64,000 nt of DNA from the NCBI RefSeq assembly GCF_016744625.1, contig NZ_JADGDZ010000001.1, positions 62,001-126,000 of the forward strand, written 5' to 3'. Position 1 is the stretch's first letter; each line of letters starts with the position of its first letter. Positions 5,970 through 64,000 of this stretch are shown here, piece by piece. Origin of the DNA: Winogradskyella sp. (GTDB lineage Bacteria; Bacteroidota; Bacteroidia; Flavobacteriales; Flavobacteriaceae). Position numbers and translations under genes: made by a program. Under the pieces are notes generated by a model. The model searched no databases, had not been told where the DNA came from, and saw only the letters and a list, made by a program, of their open reading frames with translations.

Positions 5970-7788
5970 GATTATCCATGAATTTGCGCTCTAATTCGGC
6001 TTGGAATTCTTCCATTACAGGTCTTACTGTACTTTCTGGAAGATCGGCAATTTTAATATACATTAGCCCATCTACCGCATTATTGAATAAAGGATCTACA
6101 TTAAAACCAATAAGTTTGCAATTTTGCTTAATGTACTTTTTGAGTAAAACAGGAAGACGTAAAGCACCTGGCTCAACTTCATCAATAATCTTGTCAAATT
6201 TATTTAGGTCAGCTTCTGTAGCATCGAATACAAAGTCTTTATCTGCATCTTTAAGCTTTACCTTAAACTCCTTTTTAGGATGTACATATTGCGCCACATA
6301 CGGATCGTAATAATGTGATTTCATAAACTCAATCATCAAACTCTTAGAAAAATTTGAAAACTGATTACTGATACTTACTCCACCTATTAAGAATTTATGC
6401 TCAGGATAGCGCAAAGTGGTATGTACAATACCTTTCCAAAGTAAAAAGAGTGGCATTGGTTTTTGCTGATATTCTTTAATAATAAAAGCCCTTCCTAACT
6501 CTAAAGATTGACTCATCATTTTATAGAGTTCAGGTTCAAAACGAAACAAGTCTTGAAGATAAAATCCATCGATGCCAAAACGTTCAAAAATTTTAGAACC
6601 TAATCCCATCCTGTAAGCGCCAGCCAATACTTTCTTATCGTTATCCCATAAAAACATGTGATGATAATAGGTGTCAAACTTATCTAAATCTATAGCCTCG
6701 TTAGTGCCTTCACCAACTTCTCTAAATGTAATCTCTCTAAGCCTACCAACCTCTCGCAAAATATTAGGCATATCTTCAGCAGCAGCTAAATAAACCTCAT
6801 AATTTTTACTCGTTAAAAGTTTACAGTCTTTTACTTTCAAAGCCTCTACCTCAGCAATCATAACCTCAGGATCAATAGGAGTTACTATACGCTTTGGCGG
6901 TTTAGGTACTTTTAATTGAGATTGAAGATTATCTAAAATCTTTGGCTTATCCTCAAAAGTCTTAGATAACATGTACGTTTTTATCCTCAGAAATTCTGAG
7001 AAATCTGAAAGACTTGGATGTTCTTTTTGAGCTTTTACAGAGATAGGCTTACCAACTCTAACCTTAATAATGCGACGTTTTTGAGTTAGTAATTCCGACG
7101 GTAACTTTGCTGTTCTCAGCGTATCGCTTAATTTAGAGAGTCTGTAAAATAATCGACTGTTTTTGGCATGAAAATAAATAGGAACAACAGGAACATTAGC
7201 CTTTTGAATTAGCTTCATAGCGGCTTCTTCCCATTCTTTATCTACAACTAACTTTCCATCTTTATACGTAGAAACTTCACCAGCCGGAAAAACACCCAAT
7301 GGATGCCCTTCTCTTAAATGTAATATGGCATTTTTAAAACCAGCAATGCTACTTTTCACATCCTTTCTGTCTTCAAAAGGATTCACTGGCATTATATAAG
7401 GCTTCAATGGCTCTATACGATGTAATAGGAAATTAGCAATAATTTTAAAATCACTGCGCTGTTCTATCATCAACTTTAATAATAAAATACCATCAATACC
7501 ACCTAGAGGGTGATTAGAAATCGTAATATAAGGTCCTTCTTTAGGTAAGCGTTTCATATCTGCTTCAGGAATTTCAAATTTAATCTGAAATTCATCCAAA
7601 ATGCCATCTAAAAACTCAAGATTATTAAGGTGCTTGTTACGATTGTAGATTTTGTTGAGTGTAGAGATTTTAAGGACTTTCATCAATATCCAACCAAAAA
7701 AAGTACCTAAGAAACCGTACTTATCAGCATGGATTGCCTTAGCGACTTCTTTAGCGGTTACTAATCCAGTATCAGATGATTTCCCCAT
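5956..7788 (-). CDS. Two-domain lipid acyltransferase (PlsC-like + GNAT-like; OlsF/GlsF type)
   Basis: A 610-residue protein. The N-terminal half (about 60-290) is a PlsC-like O-acyltransferase with SNHPLGGIDG (H93, D99), the acceptor-site block VFPAGEVSTYKDG and VPIYFHAK. The C-terminal half (about 320-580) is an N-acyltransferase of the ornithine-lipid OlsB / hemolysin-like GNAT type, with REITFREVGEGTN, LELGRAFI and FLIGGVSISNQF. The same fusion is known as OlsF, or its glycine-lipid counterpart in Bacteroidota, which N-acylates an amino acid with a 3-hydroxy fatty acid and then O-acylates the hydroxyl. Ornithine versus glycine specificity cannot be read from sequence. It is predicted to act at the inner-membrane cytosolic face, and a downstream exported protein overlaps it by 14 bases. 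Confidence 0.8.
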   Translation of the reverse strand: MGKSSDTGLVTAKEVAKAIHADKYGFLGTFFGWILMKVLKISTLNKIYNRNKHLNNLEFLDGILDEFQIKFEIPEADMKRLPKEGPYITISNHPLGGIDGILLLKLMIEQRSDFKIIANFLLHRIEPLKPYIMPVNPFEDRKDVKSSIAGFKNAILHLREGHPLGVFPAGEVSTYKDGKLVVDKEWEEAAMKLIQKANVPVVPIYFHAKNSRLFYRLSKLSDTLRTAKLPSELLTQKRRIIKVRVGKPISVKAQKEHPSLSDFSEFLRIKTYMLSKTFEDKPKILDNLQSQLKVPKPPKRIVTPIDPEVMIAEVEALKVKDCKLLTSKNYEVYLAAAEDMPNILREVGRLREITFREVGEGTNEAIDLDKFDTYYHHMFLWDNDKKVLAGAYRMGLGSKIFERFGIDGFYLQDLFRFEPELYKMMSQSLELGRAFIIKEYQQKPMPLFLLWKGIVHTTLRYPEHKFLIGGVSISNQFSNFSKSLMIEFMKSHYYDPYVAQYVHPKKEFKVKLKDADKDFVFDATEADLNKFDKIIDEVEPGALRLPVLLKKYIKQNCKLIGFNVDPLFNNAVDGLMYIKIADLPESTVRPVMEEFQAELERKFMDNHEDK

Positions 7789-7792
7789 AAAA

Positions 7793-7800
7793 CAAATATA
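7793..7800 (-). promoter_or_regulatory. Bacteroidota -7 promoter box (TATATTTG) at the acyltransferase start
   Basis: On the minus strand the box reads TATATTTG, an exact TAnnTTTG match, only 4 bases before the ATG at 7788. If used, transcription would begin at or inside the start codon, giving a nearly leaderless mRNA. Alternatively the true promoter lies further up and this match is fortuitous. Confidence 0.4.
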
Positions 7801-7811
7801 ACAACTATTTA

Positions 7812-7824
7812 CTCGCTAAGCGAG
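7812..7824. repeat. Short palindrome CTCGC-TAA-GCGAG
   Basis: A 5-bp inverted repeat with TAA centre in the 114-base gap upstream of the acyltransferase gene. An extended relative, GAACTCGC-CTAA-GCGAGTTC, is at 38721-38740. They look like two members of a small dispersed palindrome family. Confidence 0.4.
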
Positions 7825-7902
7825 GTTTGAATATTTCAATGCGACATCAAAATATTAAACATTAATTTAAAATAATACCTTACAAAATTGCTTTTAAGGT
7901 TT

Positions 7903-9153
7903 TTATTTGGTGACAACTTGAACCGTTCCTTGCGTTAACTGCTTCAATAACACAATTTTATCTTTTTCAAGTTCTTTTATTGCAACGTCGTTATAATGCC
8001 TAATAGTATAAAGACTCACATTATCGTGACATGTTACATTGAATTTTGCTTTTAAATGCTGTAGCAATTTTTCGAGATTATTATACAAATTATCTATACA
8101 TACTGAAAAGCTAATTGCAGAATTCTGAATAACATCAACCTTCATTTTATATAAATGTAGTAAGCTAAAAATTTCACTTATATTCTCTTCCATTATATAA
8201 GAAAAATCTAAAGATGACAAGGAAATTAAAATCTGATTTTTCTTCACTATAAAACATGGAATTTCTGGCTCTAGAGCTTTACCTTTACTTACACAAGTCC
8301 CATCTGCTGTAGGATTTAAAAACGATTTTACATACAAAGGAATTTCTTTTCTCTGCAATGGTTGAAGTGTTTTTGGGTGAATTACAGAAGCTCCATAAAA
8401 TGCCAACTCAATGGCTTCTCTATATGAAATCTGATGCAACAACTTTGCGTTTTCAAAATAACGTGGATCTGCATTTAGTACTCCTGGTACATCTTTCCAA
8501 ATAGTAACATTGTTGGCATTTAAACAATAAGCAAAAATAGCAGCTGTATAATCACTACCTTCTCTACCCAAAGTTGTTGTAAAATTATTCGCATCACTGC
8601 CTAGAAATCCTTGCGTAATATTAAGAATCGATGTGTTAAAATTTGACGCAATGTTCTCTTGTGTCTGCTCCCAATTAACATTAGAACGTCGATAATAATT
8701 ATCCGTTTTTATAAATTCCCTTACATCAATCCAATTATTTTTTAATCCTATTTCATTAAGGTAATGACTAATAATTGTAGTCGAAATTAATTCGCCAAAA
8801 CCAATAGTCTGGTCATAAACAAAGTTATAATCTGGTGATTTGTTACTTTTAAAAAACAAATTAAGCTCATCAAAAAGCAGTTTAACATCTGTAAAAACTT
8901 GATGACGCTTATTTTCAAATAAATCTAATAGTATATCATTATGGCATTTTATTACTTCATGAATAGCACTTTGTAACTCAGTTTTATTTTCAAAATAGTT
9001 TTTAATCACCAATTCCATTCTGTTAGTGGTTTTTCCCATTGCAGAAGCTATCACTAAGGTATTATCATATCCTGTGGTTTTTAAAACCGTTGCTAAATTT
9101 TTTACACCTTCAGCATCTTTTACAGACGCACCACCAAATTTGTAAACTCGCAT
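7903..9153 (-). CDS. Aspartate kinase (monofunctional)
   Basis: A 416-residue amino acid kinase. The N-terminal MRVYKFGGASV is the nucleotide-binding lysine motif; GREGSDYTAAIFAYCL near residue 200 and WKDVPGVLNADPRYF near 218 are the aspartate and ATP sites, and YGASVIHPKTLQPLQ near 252 is the family signature. The C-terminal ~120 residues hold ACT-like regulatory sequence. No homoserine dehydrogenase domain is fused. It phosphorylates aspartate in the first step toward lysine (and diaminopimelate), threonine and methionine, probably under feedback control by an end product. Its ATG overlaps the stop of the upstream GNAT gene by one base, so the two are an operon. Confidence 0.9.
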   Translation of the reverse strand: MRVYKFGGASVKDAEGVKNLATVLKTTGYDNTLVIASAMGKTTNRMELVIKNYFENKTELQSAIHEVIKCHNDILLDLFENKRHQVFTDVKLLFDELNLFFKSNKSPDYNFVYDQTIGFGELISTTIISHYLNEIGLKNNWIDVREFIKTDNYYRRSNVNWEQTQENIASNFNTSILNITQGFLGSDANNFTTTLGREGSDYTAAIFAYCLNANNVTIWKDVPGVLNADPRYFENAKLLHQISYREAIELAFYGASVIHPKTLQPLQRKEIPLYVKSFLNPTADGTCVSKGKALEPEIPCFIVKKNQILISLSSLDFSYIMEENISEIFSLLHLYKMKVDVIQNSAISFSVCIDNLYNNLEKLLQHLKAKFNVTCHDNVSLYTIRHYNDVAIKELEKDKIVLLKQLTQGTVQVVTK

Positions 9154-9629
9154 TATATATTTTTTAAATAATTTTCAATTCCGCTTTCATCTAAGTGTAC
9201 TACATCCCAATCGCGCATTACATTAGCGCCTTTACTTTCATAGAACTTTATGGCTGGTTCATTCCAATCTAATACTTCCCAACTTACTCGTTTTACTCCT
9301 ATTTCTTTTCCATAAGAAATAACAGTATCTAAAAGTTTTGTTCCTAATCCTTTGCCTCTAAATTTTTCACTCACAATAAGGTCTTCTAAATGCAAAACTT
9401 CACGCTTCCAAGTAGAGTATCTTTTATATACTAGCGCTATTCCTTCTACAAAGTCATCAACTTCTAGTACAAAACAGACAAACTTAGGATTGTTGCAAAA
9501 ACCGTCTTTTTCTAAATCAGAAAGCGTGACTTCTACAGCATCGGTTTCCTTCTCAAAAGTTGCCAATTCTTGGATAAGTTCTAAAACTCTTGACATATCT
9601 TGCTTAACTGCTAATCTTGGTTGATTCAT
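9153..9629 (-). CDS. GNAT family N-acetyltransferase
   Basis: A 158-residue GNAT domain protein. The acetyl-CoA site is visible as VSEKFRGKGLGTKLLDTVISYG (the RGKGLG pyrophosphate loop near residues 95-100), followed by WNEPAIKFYESKGA, the typical C-terminal strand and helix. The N-terminal AVKQDMSRVLELIQELATFEK resembles diamine/thialysine N-acetyltransferases (SSAT-like), but the substrate is a guess. It is the first gene of a two-gene leftward operon with aspartate kinase, which may hint at an amino-acid or polyamine substrate. A TATATTTG promoter box lies 21 bases upstream of its ATG. Confidence 0.85.
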   Translation of the reverse strand: MNQPRLAVKQDMSRVLELIQELATFEKETDAVEVTLSDLEKDGFCNNPKFVCFVLEVDDFVEGIALVYKRYSTWKREVLHLEDLIVSEKFRGKGLGTKLLDTVISYGKEIGVKRVSWEVLDWNEPAIKFYESKGANVMRDWDVVHLDESGIENYLKNI

Positions 9630-9649
9630 ATTCGATTTAAAAAAGAAAT

Positions 9650-9657
9650 CAAATATA
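9650..9657 (-). promoter_or_regulatory. -7 promoter box TATATTTG for GNAT-aspartate kinase operon
   Basis: Exact TAnnTTTG match on the minus strand, 21 bases upstream of the GNAT start, at the normal distance for a Bacteroidota promoter. No convincing -33 TTG is seen. Confidence 0.55.
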
Positions 9658-9756
9658 ATCTAAACTCGCCCTATATAACAACTTATTTAAAGTACGAAAA
9701 CGTTATAGTTTGTTAAAAAATGCGATATTTGTGCCAACTAATCAATATCGTACTTC

Positions 9757-10761
9757 ATGTCGCAACGCAATCAAACTTTAGGTGAATTTATTATTGAAAA
9801 TCAATCTTCTTTTAAATACACTTCTGGTGAACTCTCTCGACTTATAAATTCAATCCGTTTAGCTGCTAAAGTGGTCAACCACGAAGTAAACAAAGCCGGA
9901 TTAGTAGATATTATTGGCGCTGCAGGTGATACTAATATTCAAGGAGAAGATCAGCAAAAATTAGATGTATACGCTAATGATAAGTTTATACAAACCATGA
10001 CAAAAAGAAATATTGTTTGTGGTATTGCTAGTGAAGAAGAGGATGATTTTATTGCAATTAATAGTCAAGATGAAAATCATCAGAACAAATATGTGGTTTT
10101 AATTGATCCCTTAGACGGTTCTTCTAATATCGATGTAAACGTTTCTGTTGGTACAATTTTTTCGGTTTATAGAAGAGTAACTCCTGTAGGAACACCTGTT
10201 ACAATTGACGATTTTTTACAAAAAGGAAATCAACAAGTTGCTGCTGGTTATGTCGTTTACGGAACCTCCACAATGCTAGTTTATACAACTGGAGATGGCG
10301 TTAATGGTTTTACATTAAACCCAGCAATTGGTTCGTTTTATTTATCACATCCTGATATGCAGTTTCCAGAAGATGGAAATATATATTCTGTAAATGAAGG
10401 AAATTATATCCATTTTCCTAGAGGTATTAAAGACTATATAAAATACTGTCAAATGGAAGAAGATAATAGACCATATACATCTCGTTATATTGGTTCTTTA
10501 GTCTCTGACTTTCATAGAAACATGATTAAAGGAGGTATATACATGTATCCTAAAAGTTCTAAAAATTCTAACGGTAAACTTCGTTTATTATACGAATGTA
10601 ATCCTATGGCTTTTATTGCAGAACAAGCTAATGGAAGAGCAAGTGACGGATTTATACGCATTATGGATGTAGAACCTACAGAACTGCACCAACGCGTGCC
10701 ATTTATTTGTGGTAGTAAGAATATGGTAGAAAAAGCCGAAGAGTTTATGCGCAACGCGTAA
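9757..10761 (+). CDS. fbp: Fructose-1,6-bisphosphatase, class I
   Basis: A 334-residue class I fructose-1,6-bisphosphatase, which removes the C1 phosphate in gluconeogenesis in the cytosol. The metal-binding signature [10 protein letters not shown] lies at 117-126, preceded by the glutamates of GIASEEEDD (about 89-97). [14 protein letters not shown] (57-70), NEGNYIHFP and the C-terminal substrate loop GGIYMYP...[21 protein letters not shown] are all present, so the enzyme looks intact and of normal length. It is divergently oriented from the GNAT-aspartate kinase operon. A near-match promoter box GATATTTG sits at 9724-9731, 26 bases before the ATG. Confidence 0.96.
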
Positions 10762-50759: not shown

Positions 50760-53700
50760 ATGCACATCAAAAAGCACGTCCTCCTACTCCTTATTGTAAC
50801 GCTTGTATTTTCTTGTAAAAAAAAGCCAGTTGAGACAGATAACATATTTAAGTATAGAGATTACATCAGTTATACAACATCAGGAGTCGTTTCTGTAACA
50901 GCGCCAATCAAAATTAATCTTGCAGAAGCCGTTGAAGGTTGGGAAGCAGAGCAAGAGTTAGATACTGGTTTAATTTCTACACAACCTCATATTCAAGGGA
51001 CTTTAAAAGCACTCAACAAACACACCTTACTATTTACACCAGACGAAGTTTTAGAGCCAGCAACGGCTTATGGAGTTACAGTGCAGTTAGGAGATATTTA
51101 TAAAACAATTCCTGCAGAGTTTAAAAACTACACTTTTGAGTTTAAAACCATTACTCCAAGTTTTAGCATCATGACTAACAATCTACAATCCTATAGCAAG
51201 GAATGGCAATATGTATTGGGTCAATTACGCTCTTCGGATGTGATTTCTTTAGAAGATGCCAAACAATTAGTATCAGCAAAACAGAACAAAAAAGACTTAA
51301 ATTTAGTTTGGCTCGAAGTGCCAGAACCTTCTAAGTATTTCGAATTTAGAATAGACAGCATCAAACGTCAAGTAGAAGACAGTAAAATTGATGTGTATTG
51401 GGATGGTAAAGCCATTAAAGCCGAAAACAAAGGAGATAACTTCATCAATATTCCTGGTAAAAATAACTTCAGTATTGTAGAAACAAACGTTATTCAAAAT
51501 CCAGAACAGTATTTATCACTTAACTTTTCCGACCCTTTAAAAAAGCAACAAAACTTTGCAGGTTTAGTAACTATTCAAAATGTAAAAAACCCAAAATATA
51601 TTGTAGATGGTAATGTTTTAAAAGTCTATCCTGACACCAAATTGGTTGGAGATATTAGAGTCGATGTCTTTACAGGAATTAAAAATACAGATGGTTTTAA
51701 ACTAAAGACTGCATTTGTACAAACCTTAACCTTTGAAGAATTAAAACCACAAGTACGATTGGTTAGTAATGGTTCTATTTTACCAAATTCCAAAGACTTA
51801 AAATTCAATTTCGAAGCGGTAAACCTAAGTAAAGTTGACGTCAGAATTATAAAACTTTTTGAAGACAATGTACTTCAGTTTTTACAAACAAATAACTTAA
51901 ACAGTAATAATGAATATGGCATAAAAAATGTCGGAAGACGTATTGCAAAAGAAACCATTACTTTAATACAAGATGGATCTCAAAACACAGGCAAATGGAA
52001 AGCCTATAGCATCGATTTGTCAAAATATATACAAGCAGATCCTGGAGCGATTTACAGAGTTGAAGTCGGATTTAAAAAAGCATATTCATTATACGATTGT
52101 ACTTCGAATTCTGAAACTACTGACGTTGAAGAAGACGATTACTACGATGACTATTATGAGGAAGATTTCTATGCGTCAGATGACACCTCTGAAGAAGAAC
52201 AAGAACTTAGAGAGGAACGCTATTGGGATAATTTAAGCTACAACTACAGAAACACCAATTACAGATATAGAGACAGAGATAATCCTTGTACAGATTCGTA
52301 CTTTAATTATGGTAATAGAACGGTGTCGCTAAACTTAATCGGTTCTGATCTTGGAGTGATTGCAAAGCAAGGCAACGACAATACGTATTTCTTTGCTGTG
52401 ACAAATATTCTATCCACAGATCCTGAAGCAAGTGCTAAAGTAACCTTATACAATTATCAGCAACAAGAACTAGCAAATGGTAACACCAACAATGAAGGAA
52501 TTATAGAAATCGATGCTAAAAAACGAGCTGCTTTTGCTATTGTTTCAAAAGGAAAAAGTGTGAGCTACGTTAAGCTCTTTGATGGCAATTCTTTATCGCT
52601 AAGTAAGTTTGACGTTTCTGGAAATAGATTGCAACGTGGACTAAAAGGCTACATCTATGGCGAACGTGGTGTTTGGAGACCAGGTGATAGTTTGTTCTTA
52701 ACATTTGTATTAAATGACAAGGCAAATAAGTTACCAAAAAGACATCCTGTTAAACTCGAAATTACAGACCCTGTTGGCAAGTTAGTTTACAGAAAAGTCT
52801 CAGTAGATAACATCAATAATTTCTTTGATTTTACCGTTCCAACATCTTCAGATTACAAAACCGGAAGCTACAATGCAAAGGTCTCTGTTGGTGGAGCTAA
52901 CTTTACTAAAAACTTAAAAATTGAAACCGTTAAACCAAACCGATTAAAAATTAAAATAGATTTTAAAGATGAAGTTTTAACCAACAATAAACCATTACAA
53001 GGCGACTTAAACGTAGCATGGTTACATGGTGCACCAGCAAAAAATTTAAAAGCTGAAATCAAAGCAAAATTTATGACGTCGCATACTAGTTTTAAAAGCT
53101 ATAAAAACTATGTGTTTAATGACCCAACTAAGAAATTCAGCACAGAAGAAACCAATGTTTTTGAAGGCTATTTAGATGCAGACGGAAAAGCTAAAGTCAA
53201 TTCAGAATTAAATATTGGCAAAAATGCTCCAGGCATGTTAACGGCTCAATTTTTAGTGAGAGCGTTCGAAAATGGTGGTGACTTTTCACTCGATGCATTC
53301 ACCATGCCTTATGCTCCTTATGAAAGTTTTGTAGGCTTGCAATCACCAAAAGGCAACAACTATGGTTCTTTCTTTACAGATGAAAACCACACCTTTGATA
53401 TTGCAACGGTTACTGCTGAAGGCAAACCTATTCAGCGTAAAAAACTAGAAGTAAAAGTCTATAAAATTGAATGGCGTTGGTGGTGGAATTCCTCTTATGA
53501 CAATCTATCGAGTTACGTGTCTAGTAATTATCACAGACCAGTTCAACAAAATGAAATAGATACAGATGCCAATGGAAAAGCAAGTTTTAAACTCAACATT
53601 CCCGAAAATGATCGTGGTCGTTATTTAATTAGAGTTGTGGATCCTGTAAGTGGTCATGCAACTGGTCGTACAGCATATTTTTATAGAAACTGGTGGTCTA

Positions 53701-56336
53701 ACTCAGCTTCAGGAGATAAAGAAGCTGCTAAAATGTTAGTCTTCTCAACAGATAAAGACAACTATAATGTTGGTGATACCGCAAAACTCACTTTCCCTTC
53801 AGGTAGTGAAGGTAGAGCTTTAGTAAGTATTGAAAATGGTACGGAAGTTTTACAACACCAATGGGTAAAAACCAAGCCAGGTGAAACTACGATTGATATT
53901 CCGGTAACGAAAGACATGGCACCAAATGTGTTTATTAATATTTCATTATTACAACCACATGCCATTACATCGAATGATTTACCAATTCGTTTGTATGGAG
54001 TGATTCCTATGATGGTAGAAAATCCGGCAACGAAATTAGAGCCACAAATTAGCATGCCAGATGCTATTCAACCAGAGCAATCTTACGAGATAAAAGTCTC
54101 TGAAAAGAATAACAAAGCAATGACTTATACGATTGCAGTTGTCGAAGAAGGCTTACTAGATTTAACACGTTTTAAAACACCAAACGCTTGGAATAGTTTC
54201 TACGCTCGCGAAGCGTTAGGGGTAAAAACTTGGGACATTTTCGATGATGTTATTGGATCCTATTCTGGTAGTATAGATCAAGTCTTCGCGATTGGTGGAG
54301 ATGGTTCTGCTGCAAAAGGAAAGAATAAAAAAGCGAATCGCTTTAAGCCAGTAGTCACCTATTTAGGACCTTTCTTATTAAGCGCAGGAAAAACAAAAAC
54401 ACATCAGCTCAAAATGCCAAATTATGTTGGCGCTGTTAGAACGATGGTTGTGGCTGGCGACAACTCTAATGAAGCTTATGGTAGTGCTGAGAAATCAGTA
54501 CAAGTTAAAAAACCATTAATGGTATTGGCAACTTTGCCACGTAAGTTAAGTCCTGGTGAAAAAGTTACCTTGCCAGTCACAGTTTTCGCTATGGAAAAGA
54601 AAGTGAAAGACGTGAAACTTACTGTAAACGTGAGTGACGGAATTATAGTAAAAGGAAATAAAACACAATCGCTTCAATTTAGCAAGCCAGATGAAAAAAT
54701 GGTCTATTTTGAATTGGATGTGACCAAAGCAAAAGGTATCAACACTATTGAAGTCGTTGCGACAGGTAATGGTGAAAAATCAACTTACAAAGTTGAGATT
54801 GATGTCGAGAATCCAAACCCAAGGACCTCTCGTATAATTGATAAAGAATTACAAGCTAACAGCAATCAAAAGATTGATATTACAACCTTTGGAGTACCAG
54901 GAAGCAATTCAGCAACGGTAGAATTTTCAACTTTACCTCCAATGGATTTCACAAAGCGAATGGAATATTTAATTCGCTATCCACATGGCTGTGTAGAGCA
55001 AACCACCTCTGGTGTTTTTCCACAGTTGTTCTTAACAGACATCTTCGATTTAACGCCTCAAAAGAAAAAGCAGGTGCAAAGCAATATTGAAAACGGAATT
55101 AGACGCTTAGGAAATTTCCAAAATGCAAGTGGCGGATTAGGCTATTGGATGGGTGAAAGTTCTGCCAATGATTGGGGAACAAGTTATGCTGGTCATTTTA
55201 TGATCGAAGCTGAGAAAAAAGGTTTTGTTTTACCATTAACTTTTAAAAGCAATTGGATTGCCTACCAAAGACAAGCAGCTCGTAATTGGAGGCCAAGCTA
55301 TAGACATTATCATAGTGATTTTGCACAAGCCTATCGTTTATATACGTTGGCTTTGGCTGGTAGTCCGGATTTGGCTAGTATGAACAGACTAAGAGAATTC
55401 GATGAAATGTCTAACGATGCTAAATGGAGATTAGCCGCTGCTTATGCCTTAGCTGGCCAAAAAGAAGCTAGTGACGCGATTTCAAAACTAGCTAATATTG
55501 ATTTTCAAAGTCCAGAAAGGGATAATTATACTTATGGATCTGTGCATAGAAATAGAGCTATGGCTTTAGAAACTATGTTACTTACAAATCATCCTAAAAA
55601 GACGGATTTAGCAAAATCTATAGCAAAATCATTAGCAAGTAGTCGTTGGATGAGTACGCAAACCACAGCATATAATCTGCTAGCTATTGGTAAAATGATA
55701 ACGCAAAATGGTGGAAAGGAATTAAAGCTAACGTACAAAATCAATGGCAAAACAGAAACTATTGATACGCAAAACGGTATTGCACAACGCGATATTCCTA
55801 TTAATGAAGGAGCGAATCAGATGACAATTACAAATAGTAAAGACAACCGAGTTTATGTTCGCGTTCTGAATTCTGGTAAATTAAAATTAGGCGAAGAATT
55901 GGCAGAACAACGCGGCTTTTCTATCTCGACCGTTTATAAAGATTTACAAGGTAATAAAATTGATATCACTAATCTACAACAAGGACAAGACTTTGTAGCA
56001 ACTGTTAGTATTTCAAATTTAACTAGAGATTATGTTAATGATGTGGCCTTAACACAGATTTTCCCTTCAGGTTGGGATATTGTCAACACACGTTTTACAG
56101 ATTTTGGAGATACAACAGTAAGTAACGCAAGGTTTACAGATATAAGAGATGACCGTGTTAATTTCTATTTCAATATGAATAGAAAAGGAAATCATGGAAC
56201 AAAAACATTTACTGTAATGTTGAACGCGTCCTATTTAGGCACATACTATTTACCAGGAGTTCAAGCTGAAGCTATGTATGACAATGACGACTATTTGGTA
56301 AGGAATAAAGGTAAATGGGTAACTGTTGAGAAGTAA
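50760..56336 (+). CDS. Alpha-2-macroglobulin-like lipoprotein (YfaS/MG2 type)
   Basis: An 1858-residue bacterial alpha-2-macroglobulin. The lipoprotein signal ends FSC, lipidated at C19. The MG1-MG2 and further beta-sandwich domains follow (RGLKGYIYGERGVWRPGDSLFLTFVLND is the MG2 signature, about 625-655). The thioester motif is C1411-V-E-Q1414 (PHGCVEQTTSG), with C and Q both present, and an all-helical thioester domain spans about 1390-1640. A very acidic, tyrosine-rich stretch (DVEEDDYYDDYYEEDFYASDD) near 455-475 is unusual. Such proteins sit in the periplasm, trap attacking proteases through the thioester and work with PBP1C, encoded at 62455 here rather than directly next to it. Confidence 0.95.
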   Translation: MHIKKHVLLLLIVTLVFSCKKKPVETDNIFKYRDYISYTTSGVVSVTAPIKINLAEAVEGWEAEQELDTGLISTQPHIQGTLKALNKHTLLFTPDEVLEPATAYGVTVQLGDIYKTIPAEFKNYTFEFKTITPSFSIMTNNLQSYSKEWQYVLGQLRSSDVISLEDAKQLVSAKQNKKDLNLVWLEVPEPSKYFEFRIDSIKRQVEDSKIDVYWDGKAIKAENKGDNFINIPGKNNFSIVETNVIQNPEQYLSLNFSDPLKKQQNFAGLVTIQNVKNPKYIVDGNVLKVYPDTKLVGDIRVDVFTGIKNTDGFKLKTAFVQTLTFEELKPQVRLVSNGSILPNSKDLKFNFEAVNLSKVDVRIIKLFEDNVLQFLQTNNLNSNNEYGIKNVGRRIAKETITLIQDGSQNTGKWKAYSIDLSKYIQADPGAIYRVEVGFKKAYSLYDCTSNSETTDVEEDDYYDDYYEEDFYASDDTSEEEQELREERYWDNLSYNYRNTNYRYRDRDNPCTDSYFNYGNRTVSLNLIGSDLGVIAKQGNDNTYFFAVTNILSTDPEASAKVTLYNYQQQELANGNTNNEGIIEIDAKKRAAFAIVSKGKSVSYVKLFDGNSLSLSKFDVSGNRLQRGLKGYIYGERGVWRPGDSLFLTFVLNDKANKLPKRHPVKLEITDPVGKLVYRKVSVDNINNFFDFTVPTSSDYKTGSYNAKVSVGGANFTKNLKIETVKPNRLKIKIDFKDEVLTNNKPLQGDLNVAWLHGAPAKNLKAEIKAKFMTSHTSFKSYKNYVFNDPTKKFSTEETNVFEGYLDADGKAKVNSELNIGKNAPGMLTAQFLVRAFENGGDFSLDAFTMPYAPYESFVGLQSPKGNNYGSFFTDENHTFDIATVTAEGKPIQRKKLEVKVYKIEWRWWWNSSYDNLSSYVSSNYHRPVQQNEIDTDANGKASFKLNIPENDRGRYLIRVVDPVSGHATGRTAYFYRNWWSNSASGDKEAAKMLVFSTDKDNYNVGDTAKLTFPSGSEGRALVSIENGTEVLQHQWVKTKPGETTIDIPVTKDMAPNVFINISLLQPHAITSNDLPIRLYGVIPMMVENPATKLEPQISMPDAIQPEQSYEIKVSEKNNKAMTYTIAVVEEGLLDLTRFKTPNAWNSFYAREALGVKTWDIFDDVIGSYSGSIDQVFAIGGDGSAAKGKNKKANRFKPVVTYLGPFLLSAGKTKTHQLKMPNYVGAVRTMVVAGDNSNEAYGSAEKSVQVKKPLMVLATLPRKLSPGEKVTLPVTVFAMEKKVKDVKLTVNVSDGIIVKGNKTQSLQFSKPDEKMVYFELDVTKAKGINTIEVVATGNGEKSTYKVEIDVENPNPRTSRIIDKELQANSNQKIDITTFGVPGSNSATVEFSTLPPMDFTKRMEYLIRYPHGCVEQTTSGVFPQLFLTDIFDLTPQKKKQVQSNIENGIRRLGNFQNASGGLGYWMGESSANDWGTSYAGHFMIEAEKKGFVLPLTFKSNWIAYQRQAARNWRPSYRHYHSDFAQAYRLYTLALAGSPDLASMNRLREFDEMSNDAKWRLAAAYALAGQKEASDAISKLANIDFQSPERDNYTYGSVHRNRAMALETMLLTNHPKKTDLAKSIAKSLASSRWMSTQTTAYNLLAIGKMITQNGGKELKLTYKINGKTETIDTQNGIAQRDIPINEGANQMTITNSKDNRVYVRVLNSGKLKLGEELAEQRGFSISTVYKDLQGNKIDITNLQQGQDFVATVSISNLTRDYVNDVALTQIFPSGWDIVNTRFTDFGDTTVSNARFTDIRDDRVNFYFNMNRKGNHGTKTFTVMLNASYLGTYYLPGVQAEAMYDNDDYLVRNKGKWVTVEK

Positions 56337-57764: not shown

Positions 57765-58829
57765 TTAATGTTTCAAAGCAAAGTGTCCCTTAAACTCTTT
57801 GCTATCTAATACAATACAATACCAATAATCTGAAGTTGGTAGAACATTACCATTAAATATTCCGTCCCAAAACACATTACTGTTAATTGCAGAGTACAAT
57901 AATTTGCCGTATCGATCGAAAATATAGACCTCTGTTGATGTAAAAAATTGTGCAACATTTAGAACAAAGAAGTCATTATCTCCATCATCATTCGGAGTCA
58001 TAAATTTTTGAATGTAAAAGTGGAAATATTCTTGAGTTACCACAACATCACACTCATTAGACTTTACATAAATTGTATATAGTCCACTTGGTAAGCCAAT
58101 AAATACATTACTAAATTGATAATCTATGCCATCAAGTGAATATTGATAGCCACCATTATTAGCAAGATTTACAATTATAGAACTTCCTTGGGTTATGACA
58201 TTCTCTATTATTGGATTCGCAATTTCTGTTACGATAAATGTTATTATTTCTGTGAGACAACCATCTGTAACTTCTACTTCATAACTACCTTCACTGTCAA
58301 CTATTATTGATTGAGACATTTCACCAGAAGCCCATTGATACTGAAGGTTTATTATTGAAGAGGTTGCTACAAGCATTATATCTTCCCCTTCGCAAAAGGA
58401 CACAAATTCATCACTAAATTCTAAAGGTTGTGTTCCTATAATCTCCCATTCGCAGGTGTTTTCATTAAATGAAGTGGATTCCCAACACTCTAAGTCCATT
58501 GGCTCCTCAGGTTGTACTCCCGATACTTCCCAAGTACAAGTAACGTTATTAAATGTAGTAGTTTCCCAACACTCAAGAGTAGGCTGTATAGGTTGTGTGC
58601 CTATAACTTCCCATGAGCAAGTTGCATTATTAAACGTTGCGGTTTCCCAACATTCTATCTTTGGTTGAACTTGTTGTATTCCTGTTATATCCCAACTACA
58701 TGTTGTGTTATTGAATACCGTACTTTCCCAACACTCTAATCCAGTAGGTATAGCTGGTTGTGTACCTGTAACTTCCCATAAGCAAGTTGTACTCTTAAAA
58801 GCAGCAACTTCCCAGCATTCGATTACTGG
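57765..58829 (-). pseudogene. T9SS type B adhesin, 3' fragment with CWE repeats
   Basis: A 354-codon open frame with no start until an internal ATG at 58499. It encodes five ~27-residue repeats (consensus ECWE-x3-F-N-N-x-T-C-x-W-E-x2-G-x-QP; 58423-58823), an Ig-like domain (about 115-210) and a C-terminal gliding-motility/T9SS type B sorting domain (FMTPNDDGDNDFFVLNVAQFF...VYIFDRYGKLLYSA...WDGIFNGNVLPTSDYWYCIVLD). Upstream the frame is stopped by TAG (58832-58830), while the preceding 59316-58795 frame, which has the signal peptide, is offset by one base. Read together they are one adhesin gene broken by a frameshift or, more likely, by an internal deletion of 3n+2 bases. Confidence 0.75.
58423..58823 (-). 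repeat. Five tandem ~81-bp coding repeats (ECWE...TCxWE...GTQP)
   Basis: Five tandem units of 27-28 codons, each with two cysteines and conserved ECWE, FNN, W-E/D, and GTQP positions, in the 3' adhesin fragment. DNA identity between units is visible by eye (TGTTGGGAAA, TGGGAAGTTA). Confidence 0.85.
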
Positions 58830-59316
58830 CTAAAAGATTAGTATCTGTATTATCCCAAATTTCAAATTTTACATTTATTGGAATAACTCCAGAACCGCAA
58901 AACCCACCTAAAGGAGAAAGATTAAGTAACCAAGATGAAAACTCATAGGTTGTATTTTCACATAAACCACTTATTGTTGTTCTATAAAATTCACCAGCTG
59001 TAAAATTAGAATTTACAATTAGCATTCTTTCATTTGTATCATTTGGAGTATGGTCATTTATATCAAACCAGTCAAAATAGTCAGAATTACTTGACACTGT
59101 ATAAAGTCCGTCATTTGGGTTTTGACCATTAGCATATACATACGAAGTTGTACCTACAGGTAACGATGAATCCTGTAATCCTATTCCAAAAGTTTCTGTA
59201 AAAATTGGATCTCCTGAATTACCTTGGCAAAATCCCAATTGCGCATGTATCTCTTTTGAAAAAAAAGAAATGCAAATAATTATGACTATTTTAAGATCTA
59301 AGAAAGCGTTTCGCAC
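58795..59316 (-). pseudogene. T9SS type B adhesin, 5' fragment (signal peptide plus start of domain)
   Basis: A 173-residue frame with a signal peptide (about 8-25, IVIIICISFFSKEIHAQ) and a secreted beta-rich domain: GFCQGNSGDPIFTETFGIGLQDSSLP, TYEFSSWLLNLSPLGGFCGSG, PINVKFEIWDNTDTNLLAS. Typical homologues continue for another ~70 residues before any repeats, but here the frame shifts straight into NRMLGSCCF and stops at 58795-58797. The 3' frame picks up in the middle of a CWE repeat. So this is the N-terminal part of a disrupted surface protein, not a complete gene. Confidence 0.75.
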
Positions 59317-59659
59317 GTTTAAATATATAGATAAGTCTATGTAGTAATTTTAACTTTTCGACGAAATAATCATAAAAAACCCGTTTGCATAGTACATGTA
59401 TAGGTTAATAAGGTGTTTTAAGAGAAATGCTTCTGACTTATCTTAAGCAGAAAGTGCTACTTTGTCTGTATTACCAAATACACCTAGCTTAATTTGTCCT
59501 ATAAAAAATCAAAAAAAGTATGTTAGATAGATAGAATCGTTTATTAAAAGAGTCGCAAGAAACAATAAATAGTAAGAAACGTATAAAGACTACTGTGAGC
59601 ATCAATTTACAAGAACAAGTAAATACTATAAGCAACATCATAAATTGTTAAGCAAAAAT
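59317..59659. other. 343-base gap between adhesin fragment and glycosyltransferase
   Basis: AT-rich and without a credible gene. A 38-codon stretch on the plus strand (59535-59651, reading NRLLKESQETINSKKRIKTTVS...) is preceded in the same frame by ATGTTAGATAGA and a TAG (59532-59534); it could be the remnant of a decayed small gene but may be chance. No clear repeat or terminator is seen. Confidence 0.5.
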
Positions 59660-60829
59660 CTACTTATAAATTTCTTCTTGTTTTTCTTTAGTAAATTTTT
59701 GTAGTTTTTTAATTAATTTAATAGCTGTAGACCGCCTCCATTGTTCGGAAATAATTTGTTTATTCTCAGCGATTTGCAAACTCGTCAAGGGTATTAAATT
59801 ATATGTATTCCCTGTTAAATCTTGTATTGAAAAAATATGAATACCTAGTTTTTTACATTGTATATAAATCGGATTTTCTTTCCTTAAAAACACTTTTGCA
59901 CCTTTGTATAATACAGTATTTATATTACCTCTCGCTTGTTGACGAGTATGATTCATGATAACAAACCCACACGATTCTATTTTTTTATAGTACGCTTCTA
60001 AAGAAAGAAAATCCATAAGTGCATCAACCTTATTTCTTCCTAAAAAAAAGACACTAAAGTTTTTTATGATTTTAGCATATATTTTACTTCCATAACTAAG
60101 TGGAATAACAACTTTTATGTCTTTGAAATTTAATTTTCTTAATAATAAAATAGCCTCAAGATGGTTATTCGATGCATATGCAGAGTTACCCAATAAAATA
60201 TTATTCCCAGAAAAACTTTTAGAACCAACATTAAATGTATCTTCTAAAGTATATGAGTTTAGATAAAGATGCTTAGCAGTTAATTTAGGAATAGCTTTTA
60301 ATAAAATAGGGTAAAGCTCTTTTTGAATTGAGACTACGTCTATTCTATTATATGGAAAATTTTTGTCTTTAGAACTAGTGGAAATTATTTTATTAAATCT
60401 TTTTAATTTAGATTTTAATTTCGTTTTTGCATCAAAAAAACTCAATGTTTTAGAAAATACTTCTATGATTTTAGAATATGGTAAAGTTACTTTATTTGTA
60501 AAGGGAGCAATAATGTTTGCATAATCTCCTCCCCAAGAATGCCATACTATTAGTGTTTGTGGCAATGCATCTCTTAAAACTTTTTCATAAACAGGAAACA
60601 AATAATGAATAACAATACAATCAACATTTTTTATCTCTTCTTGTAATTCTTCAGACTCAAAATAATTATCATATATAACACTTATGTTATTCAAATTATT
60701 TGTAAATCTTTGAAGCTGTTTTACAGGCTGATATATTTTCCATGTGTTACTTCCTGGAAAAGCTTCTTCATACAACCCATGAGTTAATGGTATTACCTTT
60801 TCATCAAATGCAAAATGTACTATTCTCAA
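59660..60829 (-). CDS. Glycosyltransferase, WecF-type (GT56, Fuc4NAc transferase-like)
   Basis: A 389-residue GT56-family protein like WecF, which adds Fuc4NAc from TDP-Fuc4NAc to lipid-linked intermediates of enterobacterial common antigen. Signature blocks are GNSAYASNNHLEAI near 205-218, VIPLSYGSKIYAKII near 242-256, FLGRNKVDALMDFLSLEAYYKKIESCGFVIMNHTRQQARGNINTVLYKGAKVFL near 268-325 and NPIYIQCKKLGIHIF. WHSWGGDYANI near residue 100 is present too. It probably acts on the cytosolic side of the inner membrane. It is the third gene of a leftward cassette after a BKACE enzyme and an acyltransferase, which suggests assembly of a modified sugar; donor and acceptor are unknown. Confidence 0.85.
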   Translation of the reverse strand: MRIVHFAFDEKVIPLTHGLYEEAFPGSNTWKIYQPVKQLQRFTNNLNNISVIYDNYFESEELQEEIKNVDCIVIHYLFPVYEKVLRDALPQTLIVWHSWGGDYANIIAPFTNKVTLPYSKIIEVFSKTLSFFDAKTKLKSKLKRFNKIISTSSKDKNFPYNRIDVVSIQKELYPILLKAIPKLTAKHLYLNSYTLEDTFNVGSKSFSGNNILLGNSAYASNNHLEAILLLRKLNFKDIKVVIPLSYGSKIYAKIIKNFSVFFLGRNKVDALMDFLSLEAYYKKIESCGFVIMNHTRQQARGNINTVLYKGAKVFLRKENPIYIQCKKLGIHIFSIQDLTGNTYNLIPLTSLQIAENKQIISEQWRRSTAIKLIKKLQKFTKEKQEEIYK

Positions 60830-60839
60830 TTTATTGAAG

Positions 60840-61481
60840 TTAATTCTCGTTTTTTCTAATTACTTTACATGGATTACCATAGGCTACAACATTGCTTTCA
60901 ATATTTTTTGTTACTAAAGCTCCTGCTCCGATAATAACATTTTTCCCAATTTCAATACCATCAATAATATAAGCTCCCATACCTATAGTTGTCCCTTTTC
61001 CTATTGTTACAAACCCTGCAATATGAGCTCCAGGATTTACAGTAACATAATCACCTAAATTAGAATGATGACCGACAGAAGCATTTCTATTAATGGTTAC
61101 ATAATTCCCTATTTTAGTTTGCCCAGCAATTGAGACATGACTATTTATCATACATCCAAACCCCATATTTACTGTTGATGATATTTCAACTGACTTGTTT
61201 ATAACATTTGTCATCTTAGACCAGTGTTCTAAAAACAATTTAGACACTTTCTGTTTATTTATTGCTTTATTAACACCCAGAAACAACAAATCTGTTTTCT
61301 CTGGCATTGATGAAACAATAGTAGTATCAAATTTATTGTTGATATATGCGTGACGAGGTTCTATTTGTAAATTATTAACAATCTCAATTTGAGGAAACCA
61401 ATTAAGCGACTCAAGATTATCAAAAATCATAGTTAATACAGGTTCGCTAAATCCTAAAATCGTGAGTTTATTATTAGACAT
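60840..61481 (-). CDS. PglD/NeuD-type sugar O- or N-acyltransferase (hexapeptide repeat)
   Basis: A 213-residue protein. The N-terminal ~75 residues are a Rossmann-like domain of PglD/NeuD acyltransferases (LTILGFSEPVLTMIFDNLE), and the C-terminal ~110 residues are a left-handed beta-helix of hexapeptide repeats (VSIAGQTKIGNYVTINRNASVGHHSNLGDYVTVNPGAHIAGFVTIGKGTTIGMGAYI, then IGAGALVTKNIESNVVAYGNPCKVI). GHHSNLGDY contains the catalytic histidine pair typical of PglD. It transfers an acyl group from a CoA donor to an amino or hydroxyl sugar in the cytosol. It overlaps the upstream BKACE gene by 8 bases and lies 10 bases before the glycosyltransferase gene. Confidence 0.88.
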   Translation of the reverse strand: MSNNKLTILGFSEPVLTMIFDNLESLNWFPQIEIVNNLQIEPRHAYINNKFDTTIVSSMPEKTDLLFLGVNKAINKQKVSKLFLEHWSKMTNVINKSVEISSTVNMGFGCMINSHVSIAGQTKIGNYVTINRNASVGHHSNLGDYVTVNPGAHIAGFVTIGKGTTIGMGAYIIDGIEIGKNVIIGAGALVTKNIESNVVAYGNPCKVIRKNEN

Positions 61482-62331
61482 GAGTATTTACATTTAATTT
61501 GTTGCCAAACCCTTCATTTCTCAAACTTAATGGCGTTTTAAACTCTTTCTCATTAATTTCAATCAATTGATGTATTCTTTTCAGTAACTGAATATTAGTT
61601 GCTTTTTGTGTCTTCTTAGTGTCATACCAAATATTATCCTCTAACCCAACTCTAACACCATAGCTCTGTGAGATAGCAAGACTATTAACTTTAAGTTGAT
61701 TAACACCTAAACCTGCAAAAACAACTTTACTATTTTTAGGTATTTGTTGCAATGCCGTAGATATAGTTGTTAAATCTGCTTGCATACCTGAGATATTACC
61801 AAATAATAAATTCCAATAGTATGGACCTTCAATTATGTTCTTTTCAATAAGGTATTTCCCATAATTAATCATTCCTAACCCAAAACATTCTAATTCAGGA
61901 ATTACACCATATGCCTTCATTTTTTCAGCAAGTTTAATAATCATATCAGGATTATTTACAGATGCATTTTTAATAAAATTTAGTGATGATAATGTTAGTG
62001 AGCACATATCAGGCATTAATTCTATTATCTCTGATCTTTTTTCAAATTCTGACACATTTCTACCAGATGTACTTCCACATATTATCAAGTCTGGACAATA
62101 TTTCCGTACTCCTTCAAAAATCTTAGTGTATACGCTACTCCTATGTGTTGGCACTCCATTATCTTCTCTTGCATGTAAATGAGCTATAGTTATTCCTACT
62201 TCATATGCCTGATGCGTTTGTTCAATAATTTCTGAAGGTGAAATTGGAACAAATGGTGTATGAGCCTTAGTTGGAATCATTCCAGTAGGGCAAAAATTAA
62301 TAATTATTTTATTTAATAAATCCATAAACAA
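61474..62331 (-). CDS. BKACE (DUF849, beta-keto acid cleavage) family enzyme
   Basis: A 285-residue TIM-barrel enzyme of the BKACE family, known from 3-keto-5-aminohexanoate cleavage enzyme (Kce): a beta-keto acid plus acetyl-CoA gives acetoacetate and a new CoA thioester. Signature blocks are the Zn-binding HLHAREDNGVPTH near residues 51-63, ICGSTSGRN near 83-91, a conserved glutamate in PELECFGLGM near 146-155, and GVNQLKVNSLAISQSYGVRVGLEDNIWYD near 213-242. It heads a three-gene cassette with an acyltransferase and a glycosyltransferase, an unusual setting, because lysine-fermentation genes are absent. A role in making the acyl-CoA for the sugar acyltransferase is an attractive inference. 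Start may be Met 1 or Met 3. Confidence 0.88.
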   Translation of the reverse strand: MFMDLLNKIIINFCPTGMIPTKAHTPFVPISPSEIIEQTHQAYEVGITIAHLHAREDNGVPTHRSSVYTKIFEGVRKYCPDLIICGSTSGRNVSEFEKRSEIIELMPDMCSLTLSSLNFIKNASVNNPDMIIKLAEKMKAYGVIPELECFGLGMINYGKYLIEKNIIEGPYYWNLLFGNISGMQADLTTISTALQQIPKNSKVVFAGLGVNQLKVNSLAISQSYGVRVGLEDNIWYDTKKTQKATNIQLLKRIHQLIEINEKEFKTPLSLRNEGFGNKLNVNTHV

Positions 62332-62454
62332 GTAACCAATGTGCTTTCCAACAAATATAACAAAGCAGCAATAAAATTTTATGCTTCAAGAATAAATATT
62401 AAAATTGTCTTAACTAAACATCTAAAAGGGCTACGCTGAAAGTATATATTCTAA
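62332..62454. promoter_or_regulatory. Divergent promoter region of BKACE cassette and pbpC
   Basis: 123 bases between the outward-facing starts of the cassette and pbpC. It must contain both promoters but shows no exact TAnnTTTG box on either strand. Confidence 0.4.
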
Positions 62455-64000
62455 GTGCAAATAACCAACTACATAAAACGAAACAAAATAAAGTCTGCTA
62501 TTCTAGCAATACTATTGTTAATCTATTATTTCTGTTTACCTCAGCAATTATTTAAAGATCCTACAGCAACGGTTATTACAAGTAATTCTGATAAACTTTT
62601 AGGTGCACTAATTGCAAAAGATGGTCAATGGAGATTTCCGGCGAGTGATAGTGTACCAGATAAATTTAAGACTTGTATTCTTCAGTTTGAAGACGAATAC
62701 TTTTACAAACATCCTGGTTTTAATCCGATTTCAATTTTTAAAGCTTTAAAAGGCAACCTAAGTTCTGGTTCTGTAAAACGTGGCGGAAGTACGATAACGC
62801 AACAAGTCATTCGGTTATCTCGAAAAGGACAATCGAGAACTTATTTTGAAAAATTTAAAGAACTGATTTTGGCAACACGATTAGAATTTAGATTATCAAA
62901 AGATGATATTCTAAATCTATATGCTAGTCACGCACCATTTGGTGGTAATGTTGTCGGAATTGATGCAGCATCTTGGAGGTATTTTAATAGAAATGCTTCT
63001 GATTTATCTTGGGCAGAAAGTGCAACTTTAGCTGTATTGCCAAATGCCCCAAGTTTAATTTATCCTGGAAAAAACCAAAAACGATTATTAAACAAACGCA
63101 ATCGTTTATTAAAAAAGTTGTTTGAAAATGGCACAATCGATGAACTCACTTATGATTTGTCTATAATTGAAGGCTTACCACAAAAACCATATCCATTACC
63201 TCAAATCGCGCCTCATTTGCTTCAGAAAATCGCCAGAAAAAATAAAGGCGAACGCATTAAAACCACAATTAAGGTATCACTACAAGAACAAACAAACGCT
63301 ATTGTAAAACAGCATTATAACCTATTGAAGCAAAATGAAATTTATAATATCTCTGTATTAGTTTTAGATGTAAATACGAGAGAAGTTTTGACCTATATAG
63401 GCAATTCACCAACTGATAATGCGCATCAAAAAAGCGTAGATATTATAGATAAGCCTAGAAGTACTGGTAGTATTCTAAAACCGTTTTTATATGCTTCAAT
63501 GTTAGATGCTGGTGATTTATTGCCAAATACTTTAGTTGCAGATGTGCCAACACAATTTGGGAGTTATCAACCCGAAAATTTCAACAAGTCCTACGACGGA
63601 GCTGTATTTGCAAATGAAGCTTTATCTCGTTCTCTTAATGTTCCTGCTGTGCGAATGCTTCAAGACTTTGGTTTAGATCGATTTTATCACTATTTAAAAC
63701 AACTCCAATTAAAAGATTTAAAATACAATGCCAATCATTATGGCTTGTCTTTAGTACTTGGTGGAGCTGAGAGTAACCTTTGGGACTTATGCAAAAGCTA
63801 TTCAGCTATGGCTTCGACTTTAAATCATTTTAATGCTAATTCGAGTCAGTATTTTACGAATGAGTTTTGTCAACCAATTTATAACTCAAAGCAATCTATT
63901 GACTTCGGAAAACTAACTAATGAGAAAACAGTTTTTGATGCTGCTTCTATCTATCTCACTTTTGAAAGTATGAAACAAGTGAATCGTCCAGAAAGTGATG
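62455..64000 (+). CDS. pbpC: Penicillin-binding protein 1C, 5' part (gene continues past window)
   Basis: 515 codons of a bifunctional class A penicillin-binding protein. The GTG start at 62455 (VQITNYIKRNKIKSAIL) gives a membrane anchor (about 13-30) and follows an in-frame stop; no ATG is available upstream. The transglycosylase GT51 motifs are EDEYFYKHPGF (79-89) and GGSTITQQ (110-117). The transpeptidase SxxK is S339-x-x-K342 and SxN is S393-x-N395; the KTG motif and the C-terminal PBP1C domain lie beyond the window. It makes peptidoglycan in the periplasm. In many bacteria pbpC directly follows the alpha-2-macroglobulin gene; here 6.1 kb of other genes separate them. Confidence 0.93.
   Translation, partial: MQITNYIKRNKIKSAILAILLLIYYFCLPQQLFKDPTATVITSNSDKLLGALIAKDGQWRFPASDSVPDKFKTCILQFEDEYFYKHPGFNPISIFKALKGNLSSGSVKRGGSTITQQVIRLSRKGQSRTYFEKFKELILATRLEFRLSKDDILNLYASHAPFGGNVVGIDAASWRYFNRNASDLSWAESATLAVLPNAPSLIYPGKNQKRLLNKRNRLLKKLFENGTIDELTYDLSIIEGLPQKPYPLPQIAPHLLQKIARKNKGERIKTTIKVSLQEQTNAIVKQHYNLLKQNEIYNISVLVLDVNTREVLTYIGNSPTDNAHQKSVDIIDKPRSTGSILKPFLYASMLDAGDLLPNTLVADVPTQFGSYQPENFNKSYDGAVFANEALSRSLNVPAVRMLQDFGLDRFYHYLKQLQLKDLKYNANHYGLSLVLGGAESNLWDLCKSYSAMASTLNHFNANSSQYFTNEFCQPIYNSKQSIDFGKLTNEKTVFDAASIYLTFESMKQVNRPESD

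Follow-up and report, generated by a model that had tools for sequence, protein, structure and literature searches.

A BKACE-family enzyme paired with a NeuD-like acyltransferase as a candidate acyl-CoA source for surface-glycan decoration

A coupling of BKACE enzymes to acyltransferases is well supported by comparative genomics, and it is the pair of BKACE and acyltransferase that is widely conserved, with a GT56-like glycosyltransferase being one of several local add-ons. We analyzed a 64,000-nucleotide stretch from a Winogradskyella sp., here called the window, which corresponds to positions 62001-126000 of contig C15 of a 3.7 Mb genome. An earlier note on this DNA had proposed that a BKACE, a PglD/NeuD-type acyltransferase and a GT56 glycosyltransferase together place an unusual acyl group on one sugar of a glycan, a hypothesis that is right in outline. 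As one reading, an acyl-CoA made by the BKACE would be used by the acyltransferase on a nucleotide-activated 4-amino sugar, which the GT56 enzyme would then transfer, the trio constituting a mobile glycan-decoration cassette; we give this explanation as a whole a probability of about 0.62. We also consider it fairly probable that BKACE is a general biosynthetic acyl-CoA source for either a left-handed beta-helix (LbH) NeuD-like or a GNAT partner, and that the NeuD branch is a new His-His subfamily of sugar acyltransferases decorating surface glycans. Little is known of how the unusual N-acyl groups found on surface glycans such as O-antigens are made; known acyl routes for surface glycans comprise ACP-based and dedicated CoA routes. 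That the idea was undescribed agrees with our survey of the open-access literature, in which a BKACE in glycan acylation was not found, and the BKACE-acyltransferase partnership is likewise undescribed as far as found there.

A three-gene cassette between a T9SS gene and pbpC

The cassette consists of three genes on the minus strand, whose described overlapping or near-abutting arrangement is borne out by the open reading frames. The BKACE gene (PF05853; 61474..62331, 285 aa), assigned by profile and PDB sequence matches, comes first and overlaps by 8 bp the gene of a NeuD/PglD/VioB-like acyltransferase (60840..61481, 213 aa), a left-handed beta-helix protein belonging to a subfamily linked with BKACE; the GT56-like glycosyltransferase gene (59660..60829, 389 aa) follows after a gap of 10 bp. 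The BKACE frame was called from a TTG; translation more probably starts at an ATG two codons inside, at 62325. In the upstream region of this gene, TATATTTG (62352..62359, minus strand) fits TAnnTTTG, which we take to be the Bacteroidota -7 promoter consensus, a consensus match alone being no proof of function.

The segment carrying the trio (59317..62454) is, by comparison with relatives, an insertion between a T9SS gene and pbpC. The T9SS gene directly adjoins pbpC without the trio in six of the eight relatives examined, and both T9SS gene and trio are missing in the remaining two; with a G+C content of 0.25-0.30, the segment is the lowest in the stretch profiled. Within the window's genus, no more than 13 of 68 genomes possess a BKACE, most of these copies being 54-55% identical and located at a different site. 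The trio lies between plus-strand genes for an 1858-residue protein (50760-56336), presumably alpha-2-macroglobulin-like, and for PBP1C (pbpC, 62455-63999), a neighborhood that is kept in relatives. The T9SS-sorted protein (57765-59316, minus strand) is encoded in two frames, split around 58800 within an ECWE...TCxWExxGTQP repeat array, owing to a frameshift or else to an error in the assembly. A homologous gene occupies this position in relatives, and the T9SS sorting domain is a pointer to Bacteroidota.

Pairing of BKACE with two types of acyltransferase

To characterize BKACE neighborhoods, 69 loci with their flanks were picked by BKACE sequence and not by neighbor. A NeuD-like gene lies beside BKACE on the same strand at 32 loci and a GNAT gene at 30; 58 of these 62 pairs are directly adjacent and BKACE comes first in 59, counts that are not independent because many loci are related. 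The other seven comprise a lysine Kce (L068), one GNAT-BKACE fusion, three loci that are incomplete or cut off by the end of a contig, and two partnerless cases (L006, L025). A family-wide scan unselected for neighbors returned the lysine Kce as the sole intact unpaired BKACE. Moreover, GNAT-BKACE fusion proteins occur in nine genomes of one family (L098-L106 and L136). The L136 fusion (G422 and kin) was considered as the known bifunctional lysine enzyme, which is ruled out by the GNAT domain found by Pfam; at L099, an ATP-grasp gene adjoins the fusion. GNAT partners are weakly recognized by Pfam (22 bits versus 20.7), and the best 50 PDB matches listed for a low-confidence partner model (pLDDT 52) are nearly all annotated acetyltransferases (E down to 7.7e-8). 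BKACE is therefore tied to two unrelated acyltransferase folds, as expected if it supplies acyl-CoA.

In the BKACE tree, the partnered enzymes form one clade (support 100/99) that excludes both lysine Kce and 3no5, and the window enzyme falls within the NeuD-partnered clade (27 rows, 100/100), closest to L021 (97/95). Changes of partner type are few but include at least one swap, since L079 belongs to the GNAT clade and yet is paired with a NeuD, and a long separate branch (L132) is NeuD-paired too, with reversed gene order. Given the small outgroup and several long branches, deep placement is tentative.

In line with the earlier designation of the second gene as PglD/NeuD-type, a sequence search retrieved PerB, VioB and PglD as PDB relatives, and the fold agrees as well, whereas its score against TIGR03570 (NeuD/PglB/VioB) of 142.8 stays under the cut-off of 160.8, making it a relative of that family below the curated cut-off. 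The predicted structure (pLDDT 69) resembles PglB, VioB, PerB and PglD across both domains (Z 7.2-8.6, next 4.5), these proteins accounting for all 11 top matches of the structure comparison and spanning approximately residues 1-200, and it displays the two-domain PglD-type fold of a nucleotide-sugar domain plus a left-handed beta-helix. Foldseek with the same model yielded weak matches (E 0.095). By alignment, the catalytic His of the beta-helix (H125 in PglD, H141 in PerB) corresponds to H138, followed by another His (H139) and not by Asp, Asn or Glu. Asn37, Arg132 and His138-His139 are found in 32 of 32 BKACE-partnered NeuDs, compared with His-Asp or His-Asn in all 12 unpaired NeuDs and Arg132 in 2 of these 12. 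The partners of BKACE form one separate group (support 90) and, judged by sequence, constitute a distinct subfamily.

When 299 genomes of the family were searched in reverse with the partner NeuD, three matches were strong (232-286 bits, next 135), two of which adjoin an intact BKACE and the third (L209, genome G258) a decayed BKACE remnant. This remnant is frame-broken and spans BKACE residues 5-74; despite weak scores of 7.9 and 3.4 bits, it is collinear with BKACE and in the expected place. The L209 locus (6551-10757) holds AMP-ligase, KASIII and ACP genes, then the broken BKACE and then a His-His NeuD, which looks like a replacement of the acyl supply from BKACE to an ACP type.

In the window's genus, loci L089-L095 contain BKACE and one or two GNAT genes near dnaK; their neighbors are a canonical NeuD gene, a gene for a CapK/PaaK-like ligase and ATP-grasp genes of the sugar-transfer-associated kind. 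Overall, neighbors of GNAT-partnered BKACE display no enrichment of glycan genes and are mostly housekeeping, and a glycan role for these loci is accordingly not claimed.

The sugar side and the acceptor

According to the proposed mechanism, BKACE would condense a beta-keto acid with acetyl-CoA to yield acetoacetate and a new, non-acetyl acyl-CoA. From CoA, the LbH acyltransferase would shift the acyl group onto the amine of a 4-amino-deoxy sugar in nucleotide-activated form, for which dTDP-4-amino-4,6-dideoxygalactose is a plausible candidate, and the GT56 enzyme would add the N-acylated sugar to a growing surface glycan. A gene making the beta-keto acid was found neither in the cassette nor recurring beside it. 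The earlier note reported that the window lacks genes for making sugar nucleotides. This was borne out for two families, DegT aminotransferases and RmlB-type enzymes, neither of which has a match in this stretch of contig C15. Both the aminotransferase WecE (554.6 versus 375 bits, contig C59) and the dehydratase RmlB (469.5 versus 365.1, contig C138) are encoded elsewhere in the host genome, so that the cassette could draw on dTDP-4-amino-4,6-dideoxygalactose. On C59 (L141), WecE is grouped with a formyltransferase, a MOP flippase and another GT56, so that this locus is the N-formyl equivalent of the N-acyl cassette in the window; contig C78 carries a further NeuD within a locus of the legionaminate type.

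The third gene had been read as a GT56 glycosyltransferase of the WecF type. Its membership in GT56 stands (PF07429, 50.7 bits; cut-off 25), but its identity with WecF does not, the WecF equivalog models of NCBIfam scoring at most 109.9 with a cut-off of 457. Homologues of the GT56 gene were examined in 12 further genomes of the family; at 10 of the 12 loci, an aminotransferase of the DegT/WecE type occurs together with either NeuD or a formyltransferase, some of these matches being weak. Among 90 neighbors of 21 BKACE-NeuD loci, we counted 13 GT2, 10 DegT, 4 UDP-sugar dehydrogenases, 4 epimerases and 2 NeuB. Conservation of the trio elsewhere, by which the earlier note had proposed to judge its idea, is largely not observed: a GT56 gene near the pair is confined to the window and one looser instance in Aequorivita (L026), where aminotransferase, BKACE, NeuD and GT56 lie in one stretch. 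The idea survives because BKACE-NeuD and GT56 plus N-acyl/N-formyl transferase are each recurrent. Its core, a BKACE-derived acyl-CoA serving a glycan-sugar acyltransferase, is strongly supported by the adjacency at 62 of 69 loci, the fusions, the NeuD subfamily and the sugar-gene neighbors; counted against the main reading are the narrow distribution of the GT56 link and the scarcity of glycan genes around GNAT-partnered BKACE, so that the general partnership need not mean sugar.

In a possible, though considerably less likely, alternative, BKACE and acyltransferase are coupled but the acceptor is a sugar hydroxyl, a lipid-linked sugar, a small amine or an amino acid, and GT56 acts on an unrelated sugar. 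In PglD, the His of the GxSGHA motif (His15) and an Asp pair contact the UDP-sugar (PMC8040287). Both features are replaced in the partner NeuDs, the window protein having GFSEPV and N36-N37, and the acceptor may therefore be something other than an ordinary nucleotide sugar; the GNAT-partnered loci, without glycan genes and in several cases near sugar-transfer-associated ATP-grasp genes, can be cited to the same effect. Conversely, the NeuD partner retains the catalytic His and is predicted to have the PglD/VioB/PerB fold in both domains, no neighbors of BKACE-NeuD are commoner than GT2 and DegT aminotransferases, and GT56 relatives adjoin WecE and N-acyl or formyl transferases. We favor acylation of a nucleotide-activated 4-amino sugar.

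Chemistry of the BKACE and comparison with known systems

The assignment of the first gene to BKACE is confirmed by 236.3 bits against PF05853 (cut-off 24.8), and a sequence search identified 3chv, 3no5 and 2y7d as PDB relatives. Aligned with Kce, in which we take His46, His48 and Glu230 to bind zinc and Ser82, Glu143, Arg226 and Asp231 to be catalytic, the window enzyme keeps the putative zinc ligands (H51, H53, E231) and the putative catalytic residues (S87, E148, R227, D232). As all of these positions are retained, it is probably active. The best NCBIfam match is the lysine-fermentation Kce model NF052387, with a score of 204.8 versus a cut-off of 382, compared with 439.8 for the control lysine Kce L068, the true lysine Kce of the host's family, which lies beside lysine aminomutase. 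Kce Glu14, which presumably contacts the amine of the substrate, aligns with Ile19 in the window BKACE and with Val or Ile in all NeuD-partnered rows (V23/I9); Ile also occupies it in GNAT-partnered rows (I29). On these alignments, the window BKACE is not the lysine enzyme, and family and residues suggest that its product is probably a short acyl-CoA without positive charge. Other BKACE groups act on hydrophobic or non-charged substrates in Bastard's classification, as PMC4922564 summarizes it.

It is improbable that the BKACE homologue instead performs a divergent chemistry, forming a beta-diketone or other product while the acyltransferase uses ordinary acetyl-CoA. A precedent is BsfD of flavophos biosynthesis, a BKACE homologue with ligands analogous to the BKACE zinc positions, which forms 2,4-dioxopentylphosphonate (PMC12871164). 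Furthermore, a Tyr called universal in BKACE (PMC12871164) is Phe150 in the window enzyme (Kce Tyr145 site). Since lysine Kce L068 and 3no5 likewise have Phe there, this Tyr is not universal, and Phe150 was dropped as a mark of divergent chemistry, being non-diagnostic. Riboflavin-linked homologues inside the same wide clade as the window BKACE speak for a different chemistry as well, whereas the decay of BKACE in G258 accompanies acyl-supply genes. These homologues lie in riboflavin-gene clusters of Salmonella plasmid pRSE21 (L147, 7001-7870, 46% identical) and a Streptomyces plasmid (L148, 7001-7855, 36% identical), near ribA and a methyltransferase and, in Streptomyces, rosB too.

A catabolic BKACE (lysine fermentation or other keto-acid breakdown) beside glycan genes by chance, the case named earlier as refuting, is the least likely account: characterized BKACE are mostly catabolic, the best NCBIfam match is a lysine Kce model and a true lysine Kce exists in the family, but the fit is poor given the score far below cut-off, Ile at the Glu14 position, the separate clade outside Kce, the absence of lysine-pathway neighbors, and the acyltransferase, which is a neighbor at 62 of 69 loci and part of a fusion protein in nine genomes.

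If BKACE indeed feeds acyltransferases, many Bacteroidota genes annotated as '3-keto-5-aminohexanoate cleavage protein' would be glycan- or amide-forming and not lysine-degrading, and the paired and fused forms would offer ready enzyme pairs for studies of acyl hand-over.

Several known systems resemble parts of the cassette. WecF (GT56) of enterobacterial common antigen transfers Fuc4NAc from a TDP donor; it has the PF07429 domain in common with the window GT56, whose relatives adjoin WecE-type aminotransferases, although the latter protein is far under the equivalog cut-offs. Kce of lysine fermentation (DUF849/PF05853, PDB 2y7d) belongs to the same fold family and, in the alignment, shares the zinc ligands and catalytic residues, whereas the window BKACE belongs to another clade and context, tied to acyltransferases in apparently biosynthetic loci. 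The N-acetyltransferases PglD, VioB and PerB (TIGR03570) share the predicted fold of both domains and the catalytic His with the window acyltransferase, but the partner NeuD is below cut-off, has His-His in place of His-Asp/Asn, and has the PglD His15 and Asp pair replaced. BsfD, like the proposed window enzyme, is a BKACE homologue in biosynthesis; unlike for the window BKACE, no acyltransferase partner is described for it (PMC12871164). In Flavobacterium psychrophilum, wfpC-wfpG form a predicted route to the 3,5-dihydroxyhexanoyl group of Qui2NAc4N, deduced from genes and an NMR-solved O-antigen, and this acyl-supply module likewise adjoins a PglD homologue, in an O-antigen locus (PMC6519341). 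Beside the window acyltransferase, flanked by pbpC and the T9SS gene, ACP and ketoacyl-ACP synthase genes are absent, and the dihydroxyhexanoyl route was rejected as a direct match, being ACP-based. The wfp module is predicted to employ an ACP and 3-ketoacyl-ACP synthases, a route that the L209 locus resembles, whereas the cassette is predicted to rely on a single CoA-dependent BKACE.
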